This document shows, in pieces, positions 12,616 through 21,787 of a stretch of DNA of 36,421 nt (positions are counted from its first letter, which is position 1; every line of letters begins with the position of its first letter). Both the position numbers and the translations under genes were made by a program. Below the pieces are notes generated by a model. That model was given only the letters and a program-made list of their open reading frames with translations. It made no database searches and was not told the origin of the DNA. Origin of the DNA: a virus; the IMG/VR virus record IMGVR_UViG_3300038701_002576, positions 1 to 36,421 of that record. One strand, written 5' to 3'.

Positions 12616-12664
12616 GTTAAAAAGTAATATAATCAACTATATACTTATTTAGATATTATGTCAA
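12616..12664 (-). promoter_or_regulatory. Early promoter P2 with shared leader
   Basis: On the minus strand: -35 TTGACA (12664-12659), 17-bp spacer ending GTA, -10 TATAGT (12641-12636), then TGATTATA and TTACTTTTTAAC. It matches promoters at 13827, 15357 and 17203 in -10, spacing and initially transcribed sequence. Transcription would start near 12629, inside the conserved leader, about 22 bases before the ATG. Confidence 0.85.
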
Positions 12665-13784: not shown

Positions 13785-13832
13785 TTAAAAAGTAATATAT
13801 GTGATCATATACGACTACTGACTTGGTGTCAA
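13785..13832 (-). promoter_or_regulatory. Early promoter P1 with shared leader
   Basis: On the minus strand: -35 TTGACA (13832-13827), 17-bp spacer ending GTA, -10 TATGAT (13809-13804), then CACATATATTACTTTTTAAT. It is the most diverged of the four copies in the -10 but keeps the exact spacing and leader. It drives the 13776-12668 genes. Confidence 0.82.
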
Positions 13833-13869
13833 ATTGATGTTCCCCTCAGGTTTGAGGGATCAAACTATA

Positions 13870-14340
13870 AAAATAGACCCCTTAAAAGGAGCCTATAAAC
13901 TGGCAATGTTCCCACAAAACCGTTTTATTGCACTTAACTTATTAACTATTTACTGCCCGAAGATAGTTTAAAGCATTTTAGTATAGTACAACTAATACCC
14001 TTTTTCAAGGATCATACTTTTTAGGTTGTTGTGAGTTCTTTCACAACCTTACCGCAAGCGTTTGGTTTTATTTTAAACTAGGTATCCTAGTTGGTTCGGT
14101 ACTAAAGTACCTTCTGGGAGGGGAGTTTTCGGTGAATAGTTGATAATATTGAGTACATGCCTCGCCTTTAACCCTAGCCTCACCTAGCGCATAAACTTCC
14201 CCCTCAAAAGGAACTCTATTGTGCGGCCACCCAAGTTAAACCATACGGCCTAACTTCGTCGGTGGCTAAGCTGCTACCCAGGTAAGACTAGTGAGCAATT
14301 AACTCAGCACAGCATGTAGCTGACTTTCATCTTACCGGAT
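13870..14340 (-). ncRNA. Candidate large structured RNA in the 650-base gene-free region
   Basis: No ORF of credible length occupies 13833-14433. Instead many hairpins are visible: 14028-14047 (GTTGTGA/TCACAAC), 14076-14092 (AACTAGG/CCTAGTT), 14098-14111 (GGTAC/GTACC), 14226-14266 (GCCACC/GGTGGC enclosing AAGTTA/TAACTT) and 14281-14336 (GGTAAGA/TCTTACC). A possible weak terminator lies at 13878-13891 on the minus strand. The minus strand is chosen because the tRNA-like element just upstream reads that way. Size and setting resemble GOLLD/ROOL-type phage RNAs, but I could not match a family consensus. Boundaries are approximate. Confidence 0.45.
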
Positions 14341-14343
14341 CTC

Positions 14344-14421
14344 CTACTGTGGGATTTGAACCCAGCCTGCATACACAGACCCACCAATATATCGCCAATT
14401 GTAGATGCGTATATCCAGTAG
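14344..14421 (-). ncRNA. tRNA-like element with T-arm but no recognisable anticodon arm
   Basis: The minus strand has a perfect T-arm core GGGTTCAAATCCC (UGGG/CCCA stem, 14350-14364) stacked directly on an acceptor-like stem CUACUG/CAGUAG (14416-14421 with 14344-14349). Between them, no 5-bp stem with a 7-base loop fits an anticodon arm. The intervening ~50 bases instead fold into one long irregular arm (AUACGCA/UGUGUAU, then CUAC-AAU/AUU-GUGG). Acceptor plus T-arm plus one long helix resembles a tRNA-mimic such as the tmRNA tRNA-like domain more than a tRNA. No CCA is encoded. Confidence 0.5.
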
Positions 14422-14433
14422 TAGTACATTCTA

Positions 14434-14838
14434 TCACACCAACTTCTCAACCTCTATTGGCCTTATAAGATAAACATCACTAACCCTAAAGACATGGTCT
14501 CCATTCTTAACAAAGTCACGACCAACCTCAAGTACCTCCACTATTTTAGATGCCAAACCACTATCCACTAACATAAGCCCATGCCCTTCTCCAGCCTCTT
14601 GCTCAAAGCGAACCTCATAATAGCCTTCATTAAAAAAGTAATCTTTATGACTAAATCCTATATCCATATAACTTAAACTAAAAACTAAAGTATTTAACCC
14701 AACCCGTTTGAGAGCCAGAGGGATCCAAATAGGAGCTTTCCTACTTATAAATATATCAATGTAGTAACCGGTTTTTATGTCCGTACATTTAAGCTTGCTA
14801 ACTGTCCCAAACTGGTCATCTCTTATTCGGTTGCCCAA
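14434..14838 (-). CDS. Hypothetical protein, first gene of the leftward unit
   Basis: About 134 residues if translation starts at the TTG at 14838 (GNRIRDDQFGTVSKLKCTD...). No in-frame ATG lies upstream before a stop, and no strong Shine-Dalgarno marks the start, so the N-terminus is uncertain. Mixed alpha/beta, no membrane segment, ends SDVYLIRPIEVEKLV. It lies immediately upstream of the tRNA-like element and structured RNA and would be cotranscribed with them. No family recognised. Confidence 0.5.
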   Translation of the reverse strand: MGNRIRDDQFGTVSKLKCTDIKTGYYIDIFISRKAPIWIPLALKRVGLNTLVFSLSYMDIGFSHKDYFFNEGYYEVRFEQEAGEGHGLMLVDSGLASKIVEVLEVGRDFVKNGDHVFRVSDVYLIRPIEVEKLV

Positions 14839-14975
14839 ATAATTTCATATGTGCCAGAAGGCGTGACCCTTAGCGCGAAAGGTTTATCACATGCACTTTT
14901 AATCCCAACCCGTATATCGATCATCAGGATCCTAACTATTATGCCACTATAATTCTTATACTCCCAGAGTTATGG

Positions 14976-15004
14976 AGTGGACTGGCAAGCCTGTTAGTGG
15001 ACTG
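14976..15004. promoter_or_regulatory. Two 9-bp direct repeats exactly 20 bp apart
   Basis: AGTGGACTG occurs at 14976-14984 and again at 14996-15004, a spacing of two helical turns, so both face the same side of the DNA. They lie between the sRNA terminator (15015-15042) and candidate -10 boxes for leftward transcription (TATAAG and TATAGT around 14953-14960) that have no good -35. This is the expected layout for an activator binding site upstream of a weak promoter. No protein partner is identified. Confidence 0.5.
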
Positions 15005-15014
15005 AGGTATCCAC

Positions 15015-15042
15015 GAAAAAACCCCGGCGGTTAAGCCAGGGT
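15015..15042 (-). terminator. Intrinsic terminator of the small RNA
   Basis: Minus strand: ACCCUGGC pairs completely with GCCGGGGU (one G-U pair) around a 6-base loop, followed at once by UUUUUU. This is one of the two cleanest rho-independent terminators in the window. It insulates the leftward unit from transcripts starting in the control region. Confidence 0.88.
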
Positions 15043-15120
15043 CGGTTCGATGAATTCTCTAAAAGCACCACAATTAAGTGATGTGAAGATATCTAATTGT
15101 ATCTCTTTTAGCAAATTCAT
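15015..15120 (-). ncRNA. Candidate ~105-nt small RNA with own promoter and terminator
   Basis: Transcription from the promoter at 15127-15155 would begin near 15120 and stop at the intrinsic terminator 15015-15042. The transcript's 5' segment (15118-15105) pairs with 15065-15052 in 13 of 14 positions, GAAUUUGCUAAAAG with CUUUUAGAGAAUUC. Inside this stem a second hairpin is possible (CAAUUA/UAAUUG, or CAUCAC/GUGGUG as an alternative). No ORF with a start and ribosome site is present. A regulatory or decoy RNA is the simplest reading. Confidence 0.7.
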
Positions 15121-15126
15121 ACAACT

Positions 15127-15155
15127 AATATAGAGAAGAAAATTTGGGATGTCAA
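15127..15155 (-). promoter_or_regulatory. Promoter of the small RNA
   Basis: Minus strand: TTGACA (15155-15150), 17-bp spacer, TATATT (15132-15127). It is near-consensus sigma70 and lacks the shared TTACTTTTTAAC leader of P1-P4, so this RNA is probably regulated differently from the early operons. Confidence 0.85.
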
Positions 15156-15159
15156 GAAA

Positions 15160-15193
15160 AACAGTAAAAGGCCCAGACATTTTCGTCCGAGCC
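15160..15193 (-). terminator. Second leftward terminator
   Basis: Minus strand: GGCUCGGAC pairs over all 9 positions with GUCUGGGCC around a GAAAAU loop (15170-15193), followed by UUUUACUGUUUUU. It ends just before the small-RNA promoter and would stop any leftward transcript from the 15.2 kb operator region, leaving a product of about 55-60 nt from the extended -10 box at 15225. Confidence 0.72.
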
Positions 15194-15224
15194 TAATCTG
15201 ATATTACTTCTTAACGAAGGACCT

Positions 15225-15279
15225 ATTATAGCATCTGGATCTTCTCAATCTTTGAGAAATTTTTCTCAATCTTTCTCAT
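15225..15279. promoter_or_regulatory. Palindromic operator with half-sites and an extended -10 box
   Basis: A perfect 8+2+8 palindrome TTGAGAAAttTTTCTCAA lies at 15252-15269. Further TTCTCA half-sites are at 15243-15249 (TTCTCAA, 20 bp from the same half of the palindrome) and 15274-15279. On the minus strand TGCTATAAT, an extended -10, is at 15233-15225, so the palindrome overlaps its -35 position. The site is also ~90 bp upstream of the rightward promoter P3. This looks like a repressor operator of the early control region; the repressor is not identified. Confidence 0.6.
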
Positions 15280-15356
15280 TATACACAGGCAGGGATGCAG
15301 GTGAGACGAGAACACCTTGCACAGCAAGCACGGTTCACTTTCTCATACTTTTCTCC

Positions 15357-15405
15357 TTGACTTTTCTTTCAATTATGTATATAGTTACGTATATTACTTT
15401 TTAAC
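15357..15405 (+). promoter_or_regulatory. Early rightward promoter P3 with shared leader
   Basis: -35 TTGACT (15357-15362), 17-bp spacer ending GTA, -10 TATAGT (15380-15385), then TACGTATA and TTACTTTTTAAC. The transcript would start near 15392 and reach the ATG at 15415 without a Shine-Dalgarno. It drives the recombination gene cluster. Confidence 0.87.
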
Positions 15406-15414
15406 AGTTATTTT

Positions 15415-17206: not shown

Positions 17207-17251
17207 CAAAGGAGAGGTATAAGTATATAGTTGATTATATTACTTTTTAAC
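17203..17251 (+). promoter_or_regulatory. Early rightward promoter P4 with shared leader
   Basis: -35 TTGACA (17203-17208), 17-bp spacer ending GTA, -10 TATAGT (17226-17231), then TGATTATA and TTACTTTTTAAC. From the spacer's final GTA through the leader it is identical to P2 on the other strand. The -35 overlaps the end of the preceding gene. Confidence 0.88.
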
Positions 17252-18701: not shown

Positions 18702-19067
18702 ATGTCAAACGAGATTGAGTTAAACGGGATTAAATATATTCCGAAAAGTGAAGCTAATGTAAAACTAGCCCAGAATACAGAGGGTTTAGATTACGTTATT
18801 ATTAGGGCAAATCGTGCAGGTGTCTTCGCGGGATATCTACTTGAAGACAATAACGAATCTGTAATATTAGTAGATTGTAGGCGCATCTGGTATTGGGAAG
18901 GTGCGGCATCGATAAGTCAGTTAGCTATTGATGGTGTTTCGGCTCCAGACGAATGCAAATTCCCAGATGCAGTATCAAAGATCAAAATAATGGGAGTTAT
19001 AGAAAACTTGATTTGCACCGAGAAAGCTATGAATTCGATAAAGGGAGTAGGTATATGGAAACAGTAG
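18702..19067 (+). CDS. DUF6948-type phage protein
   Basis: 121 residues. The family signature is plain: DYVIIRANRAGVFAGYLL, then RRIWYWEGAASISQLAIDGV, CKFPDAVSKIKIMGVIE and the end MNSIKGVGIWKQ. This family is widespread in phages without known function and is commonly followed by a Gly/Ser/Tyr/Asp-repeat ORF, as here. It overlaps that next gene by 13 bases and is flanked by the 56-bp repeats. Confidence 0.82.
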   Translation: MSNEIELNGIKYIPKSEANVKLAQNTEGLDYVIIRANRAGVFAGYLLEDNNESVILVDCRRIWYWEGAASISQLAIDGVSAPDECKFPDAVSKIKIMGVIENLICTEKAMNSIKGVGIWKQ

Positions 19068-19276
19068 TAAATAACTTTGGTTATGGTTCTGGTTCTGGTT
19101 ATGGTGATGGTTCTGGTTCTGGTTATGGTTCTGGTTCTGGTTATGGTTCTGGTTATGGTTCTGGTTATGGTTCTGGTTATGGTTCTGGTTCTGGTTATGG
19201 TGATGGTTCTGGTGATGGTTCTGGTTATGGTTCTGGTGATGGTTCTGGTTCTGGTGATACCGAGTTGATAGACTAG
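19055..19276 (+). CDS. Gly-Ser-Tyr-Asp repeat protein
   Basis: 73 residues. After METVVNNF, about 60 residues are GY, GS and GD dipeptides, ending TELID. GGGAG precedes the ATG. Such low-complexity chains are flexible and may form condensate-like or elastic segments. Here it accompanies the DUF6948 gene, possibly as an extension partner. Every repeat Gly uses GGT, Ser TCT, Tyr TAT and Asp GAT, showing recent tandem expansion of the DNA. Confidence 0.7.
   Translation: METVVNNFGYGSGSGYGDGSGSGYGSGSGYGSGYGSGYGSGYGSGSGYGDGSGDGSGYGSGDGSGSGDTELID
19079..19258 (+). repeat. Hexamer minisatellite, 30 units
   Basis: 180 bases built only from GGTTAT, GGTTCT and GGTGAT units. Because the unit is 6 bp, length change keeps the reading frame of the 19055-19276 gene. 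It is prone to slippage in replication and to assembly collapse, so the true copy number may differ. Confidence 0.95.
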
Positions 19277-21675: not shown

Positions 21676-21787
21676 AATGGGTAAAGGGGGGTCAAACCCC
21701 ACGGTAACAAGACCCTTTTGCAGCAAGGTTATCCAAGGTCGGTTTTCAGAGGGGGTCGAATTGCGCGGTAATATGGTATAGTGAACC

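Follow-up and report, generated by a model that had tools for sequence, protein, structure and literature searches.

The question raised by this locus is whether a hairpin that looks like the T-arm of a tRNA, lying in a gap without assigned genes in a phage genome, belongs to a tRNA-like RNA or merely resembles one by chance. The original prediction, made for positions 14344-14421 of the 36,421-nt stretch of viral DNA analysed here (the window), was that a T-arm and an acceptor stem are combined with one long arm in the place of the D and anticodon arms, as in the tRNA domain of tmRNA, and that the whole might act as a processing signal for an adjacent large RNA or as a decoy for tRNA enzymes. 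The observation is partly confirmed and the interpretation partly supported by the analysis described below. The reading which is preferred, at a probability of about 0.42 and with chance resemblance as a close rival, is that an anticodon-less tRNA-like segment, built on the plan of T4 RNAC, stands at the 5' boundary of a structured, non-coding RNA of the phage.

The genome is that of a tailed phage with terminase, portal, tape measure and capsid genes and with recombination genes of the ERF and RusA types. The contig ends (1-130 and 36292-36421) overlap with 127 of 130 positions identical, which probably makes this a complete genome, about 36.3 kb long and either circular or terminally redundant. 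A 107-aa ORF at 18953-19276 on the plus strand encodes low-complexity repeats of the GSGYGSG type, and long repeats are found in the other frames as well. When the terminase was compared with 50,697 phage records, 170 of them matched, all below 60% identity, and the best-ranked match had 30.4%. No relative carrying the element's region was found in the IMG/VR or GTDB genomes scanned; the phage records gave two 28-base matches only, judged to be chance, and plasmids gave none. Of five proteins compared with viral contigs (TerL, tape measure, upstream ORF, portal and ERF), three led to a total of three loci with identities of 23-42% and two to nothing; the capsid protein had no match in genome contigs, and neither the RNA-core pattern nor the promoter pattern had a match in viral contigs. 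The lack of a relative in which covariation might be seen is the main limit of the analysis, and because of it chance resemblance has to be weighed throughout.

Sequence and predicted fold of the element

The element lies on the minus strand, where the reverse complement of 14344-14421 contains GGGUUCAAAUCCC; its parts are listed in Table 1. The T-arm had been described as perfect, and its stem does consist of four Watson-Crick pairs, out of the five of a tRNA (the fifth would be C.C), closing a loop that fits the UUCRANY form. The acceptor-like stem was likewise found as described, with six Watson-Crick pairs and a strand directly continuous with the T-stem, so that the two stack to 10 bp as against 12 bp in tRNA. 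In place of the 7-bp acceptor and CCA end of a tRNA there are 6 bp, or six of seven pairs in the register 14423/14343, and no encoded CCA; the CCA end of a tRNA may be added by an enzyme.

Table 1. Features of the element and its surroundings, in window coordinates
Feature	Coordinates	Strand	Basis
tRNA-like element: acceptor-like stem, two arms, T-arm, without anticodon loop	14341..14423	-	MFE -24.2 kcal/mol and free-end scan
Acceptor-like stem, 5' strand CUACUG	14416..14421	-	sequence; fold
Arm 1, GAUAUACGC/GCG(A)UAUAUU, 11-nt loop, occupying the place of D and anticodon arms	14386..14415	-	fold
Arm 2, GGUCUGU/GCAGGCU, GUAU loop, at variable-arm position	14364..14381	-	fold
T-arm UGGG-UUCAAAU-CCCA	14350..14364	-	sequence; within 22-nt identity with 3' half of a phage tRNA-Val
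Acceptor-like stem, 3' strand CAGUAG, followed by GAGAUCC, no CCA	14344..14349	-	sequence
Upstream ORF, 134 aa, no family match; stop about ten bases before element	14434..14838	-	
Extended -10-like TGATAGAAT, no -35, absent from promoter scan list	14428..14436	-	sequence reading
Structured region without assigned genes, including and downstream of element	13868..14421	-	MFE z -4.40
Competing partner UGUGGGA and CCAGU, for 14354-14348 and 14366-14362 if RNA starts at 14421-14436	13899..13916	-	predicted pairing
Intrinsic-terminator-like hairpin	13873..13896	-	
Promoter of next leftward genes, TTGACA-17-TATGAT	13804..13832	-	

Whether the remainder forms a single irregular arm depends on where the piece is cut. 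As the minimum free energy (MFE) structure of the exact 78-mer the single arm stands: it is a long irregular hairpin of -22.8 kcal/mol (z -1.55; 17 of 200 shuffles reached this energy or a lower one), and its long arm takes CUG from the acceptor, so that arm and acceptor compete, with pairing probabilities of 0.33 for the acceptor and 0.57 for the T-stem. It does not stand for the 83-mer 14423-14341, which has two extra bases at the 5' end and three at the 3' end and whose MFE structure is a four-way junction of acceptor, two arms and T-arm, with probabilities of 0.84 for the acceptor and 0.88 for the T-stem. In these models the three-element plan is therefore one of two nearly equal folds, both of which are fragile. 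No anticodon loop is present in the 83-mer fold, as had been stated.

With eight or more flanking bases on each side, the probability of the element's acceptor falls to 0.02 or less and that of the T-arm to between 0.06 and 0.48. The loss can be traced to the 3' flank, since 10 bases on the 3' side alone reduce the acceptor to 0.00 and 10 bases on the 5' side alone leave it at 0.34. For comparison, among the 31 real tRNAs of T4 and Serratia phage Slocum, 27 hold an acceptor probability above 0.5 with 10-base flanks, and none falls below 0.01. Within 14421-13868, imposing the T-arm and the acceptor costs 6.7 kcal/mol under an energy model that omits T-loop docking and co-transcriptional folding.

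The structured region and the chance of resemblance

The element sits in a 657-bp gap without assigned genes, the largest internal gap of this kind in the genome, about 470 bases of which follow the element. On the minus strand the region 13868-14421 has an MFE that none of 100 shuffles equalled (z -4.40), while the plus strand gives z -1.22. This z-score is below those of all 88 windows sampled genome-wide (mean -0.54, sd 1.42), although that ranking used 14 shuffles per window and the ends of 13868-14421 were picked by the analyst; the lowest score among the 88, -3.89, belongs to the neighbouring 14860-15413 on the minus strand. No Rfam family matches the region, which is, on the strength of these folding models, a candidate orphan structured RNA. 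The extended -10-like sequence, read from the letters, would start an RNA near 14421, and the terminator-like hairpin is likely to be its 3' end.

Other transcription signals surround the gap. The pattern GTAATATA-N7-ATATAC occurs in four exact copies (12624-12644 and 13792-13812 on the plus strand, 15377-15397 and 17223-17243 on the minus strand), each overlapped on its opposite strand by a promoter, TTGACW-17-TATAGT/TATGAT, followed by TATATTACTTTTTAA; two of these promoters point leftward and two rightward, and the four sites are probably one promoter/operator class of the phage. At 15155-15020 on the minus strand a strong promoter match (TTGACA-17-TATATT) is followed about 85 nt later by a strong terminator-like hairpin, a sequence arrangement that makes this a candidate for a short RNA, or for an attenuated leader that precedes leftward genes.

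The estimates of how often such an element arises by chance cover both its components and its whole fold. A T-arm of the element's quality is found in 5% of 300 shuffled windows, and a T-arm with at least three G-C pairs plus a 6-bp acceptor, a combination set after the element had been seen, in 1.3% of 300. When the T-arm is taken as given, 5000 shuffles of the flanks produce a 6-pair acceptor at a rate of 15% under lax and 0.4% under strict criteria. The three-arm T-loop topology with a closing stem of at least 6 bp is produced by 12 of 4000 full shuffles and by 25 of 4000 in which the T-arm was kept. A free-end scan, which accepts pieces of 68-97 nt whose MFE structure has three arms, a closing stem of at least 5 bp and, in the final arm, a T-loop of the UUCRA form, yields one occurrence in the window, from 8 T-loop candidates on both strands; the same fold appears in 7 of 281 shuffled windows (2.5%) and in none of the 3000 sequences made by shuffling the gap. 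The scan criteria were defined after the element was seen, so these shuffle figures flatter it, and shuffles do not mimic a region whose structure has some other cause. In calibration on five control loci the scan recovered 17 of 31 ARAGORN tRNAs and passed 2 of 23 candidates that are not ARAGORN tRNAs, both of them tRNA-related: T4 RNAC and a near-threshold tRNA of phage Slocum. The latter (locus L008, 10474-10546, minus strand) is an unannotated, degenerate tRNA that ARAGORN misses and that scores 27.9 bits with RF00005, just under gathering.

The explanation that competes most seriously is that the element is a hairpin which resembles a T-arm by chance and lies within a structured leader or non-coding RNA, that the 3' strand of the T-arm pairs with 13916-13910 or with a nearby GAUCCGG, and that nothing reads the hairpin as tRNA-like. 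In predicted transcripts running from 14421-14436 to 13868, the helix UCCCACA/UGUGGGA formed between the T-arm 3' strand and 13916-13910 has a probability of 0.68-0.91, as against 0.01-0.10 for the T-stem; the disappearance of the tRNA-like fold at 8-base flanks also speaks for chance. The long-range helix however depends strongly on where the 5' end is placed, its probability being 0.13 for a start at 14410 and at most 0.10 for starts from 14440 on. The shuffle frequencies of 5% for the T-arm and 2.5% for the three-arm form leave room for chance, as does the behaviour of ARAGORN at a threshold of 80%, where 15 "tRNAs" are reported in the window and between 8 and 25 in each of 20 shuffled windows. 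Against chance stand the failure of all 3000 gap shuffles to reproduce the three-arm fold and the placement of the element in the largest internal gene-free gap, at the edge of the structured region. On balance chance is a quite plausible account of the locus, somewhat short of even odds.

Comparison with tRNA, RNAC and other known RNAs

A confident cloverleaf with an anticodon, which would have been incompatible with the tRNA mimic that was proposed, did not appear. ARAGORN reports no tRNA or tmRNA gene in the window at its default and 90% thresholds, nor, at default thresholds, a tRNA with an intron, and Rfam has no match at gathering scores and hence no cloverleaf call for the element. In the 116 bases around the element RF00005 has no match up to E=10, and the best tRNA-type match of a permissive Rfam search is to mascRNA-menRNA (RF01684), over the whole model, at 17.3 bits. 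A second T-arm-like hairpin near 21690 has no tRNA-type match.

A decayed tRNA gene of class II length (83 nt), retaining the T-arm and acceptor but without present function, would account for the length of the element and for its order of acceptor, long arm, variable-type hairpin and T-arm. ARAGORN below its usual thresholds draws an 83-nt tRNA-Tyr(ata) here, which persists up to a threshold of 83% and includes a hairpin resembling arm 2, and the 3' half of the element shares a 22-nt identity with the 3' half of a phage tRNA-Val (BLAST E 0.09). The anticodon loop so drawn lacks U33, however, and its stem consists mostly of G-U pairs; the phage carries no tRNA according to ARAGORN; and even the degenerate Slocum tRNA is scored by RF00005, which is silent on the element. 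A decayed tRNA is therefore unlikely.

The proposed likeness to the tRNA domain of tmRNA found no support. The element shares with that domain an acceptor with a stacked T-arm, but the acceptor and T-arm are about 50 nt apart in the element and hundreds of nt apart in tmRNA, and the Rfam tmRNA model aligns with the 15-nt T-arm only (6.7 bits). A permuted tmRNA is called at 13802-14445 by ARAGORN only at 80-81%, and at 80% all 20 shuffled windows give tmRNA calls as well (2-13 each); the combination of a covariance match and a tag frame that defines tmRNA was not found. With mascRNA/menRNA the element has in common a tRNA-like form with reduced arms, but its score is far under the gathering score of 42.5, the alignment takes another 5' acceptor strand (14391-14385), and mascRNA is a 3'-end product of a mammalian lncRNA.

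The plan that the isolated element reproduces is that of T4 RNAC (species 1 RNA), a 139-nt RNA annotated as misc_RNA rnaC (locus L007, 1909-2047, minus strand), which passages of PMC9697503 describe as a late RNA confirmed by Northern blot and whose biological role is given as unknown in PMC3014915. In its predicted fold the acceptor has two U.U mismatches, and the other parts are a long irregular arm, a further hairpin and a perfect T-arm. DNA like that of RNAC is present in 718 of 50,697 phage records (698 with coverage of at least 80%), and covariation supports T4 RNAC as tRNA-like. In an alignment of eight phages chosen for diversity (T4, RB69, Entb_45, PS49, Kc304, fHe-Yen9-01, Melville and NM4.3), 94.5% of cells pair and double changes occur in 20 of 44 pairs (0 of 500 shuffles), the structure tested being the RNAalifold consensus from the same alignment. 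The T-stem varies in pairs (CCGGG/CCCGG, CCUGG/CCAGG, CUUGG/CCAAG), and the UUC of the T-loop is lost in two of the eight sequences (Entb_45 and Kc304).

RNAC, with its relatives in the Straboviridae, and the element are alike in being phage-encoded and in combining an acceptor-like stem, a long irregular arm that replaces the D and anticodon arms, another hairpin and a T-arm, a plan which the element shows in the MFE structure of the isolated piece only. T4 RNAC and the element also have in common a UUCRAAU T-loop, the lack of an anticodon, and weak Rfam tRNA-type scores (17.5 and 17.3 bits); RNAC matches no family at gathering score, its best tRNA-type match being tRNA-Sec. They differ in length (139 nt as against about 80 nt), in the position of RNAC within a tRNA cluster, in the covariation of RNAC among its relatives, and in the stability of the fold: with 10-base flanks the three outer acceptor pairs of RNAC have a probability of 0.92 and the acceptor of the element 0.02, the fold of the element thus being lost, while at 20-base flanks the outer pairs of RNAC fall to 0.02 and its T-arm remains at 0.97. 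Beyond the T-arm there is no sequence homology, and a covariance model built from the eight RNAC sequences does not find the element, aligning with the T-arm only (5.4 bits); its best score in the window is 12.2 bits at 35326-35192. Judged by sequence, the element is not a member of the RNAC family and shares only the common plan.

T-loop motifs are recurrent in large non-coding RNAs, as stated in part of PMC4810234, and the element might be a T-loop module used for docking within a large ornate RNA in the style of GOLLD or ROOL, rather than a tRNA mimic. The likeness lies in a large structured phage RNA near a tRNA-type element, and the z-score of the region, lower than any of the 88 sampled, points the same way; but neither GOLLD, ROOL nor any other Rfam family matches the region in searches up to E 10, no partner for the T-loop was identified, and this explanation is very improbable.

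An attP core copied from the 3' end of a host tRNA is scarcely credible: attP sites in tRNA genes do carry the T-arm and the acceptor 3' strand, but the 19-mer TTCAAATCCCACAGTAGGA is absent from the genome and viral contigs searched, no integrase is found among the products scanned, which do not include every small ORF, and the contig ends overlap.

A proposed tRNA-like 5' border and its possible role

The preferred reading, in which a structured RNA is bordered on its 5' side by an anticodon-less tRNA-like segment, builds directly on the sequence of the element, the fold predicted for the 83-mer in isolation, the low frequency of that fold among shuffles and the element's place in the largest internal gene-free gap. 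The three-arm MFE structure and the shuffle rarity lend modest support to tRNA-likeness beyond the T-arm, within the models used. If this reading is correct, a structured RNA would be transcribed leftward from the element to the terminator near 13873, the tRNA-like fold would prevail in vivo, and host tRNA enzymes would recognise it, with RNase P cutting near 14421 and RNase Z or exonucleases acting near 14343; these cuts would either trim the downstream RNA or leave a stable RNA of about 80 nt. Such processing is suggested by general knowledge of tRNA-like substrates, and, as to mechanism, we would bet on end processing and stability over translation. The substrates of RNase P named in part of PMC11143913 also include tmRNA, the tRNA-like ends of plant viruses and phage C4 RNA.

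A bolder version is rather unlikely, namely that the element represents a new, unrelated class of anticodon-less phage tRNA-like RNA which works as a built-in processing tag, such that cuts by tRNA enzymes define where a structured RNA of about 475 nt begins and the T-arm switches, pairing either within the tRNA-like fold or in a long-range helix that closes the large RNA.

Should the resemblance prove to be due to chance, the locus would be a useful caution against relying on a perfect T-arm alone when it lies in an AT-rich gap of a phage genome. If the tRNA-like reading is true, this phage would provide a small genome for testing what anticodon-less tRNA-like RNAs do, and the existence of a second, unrelated RNA on the RNAC plan would imply that such RNAs have repeated origins among phages.
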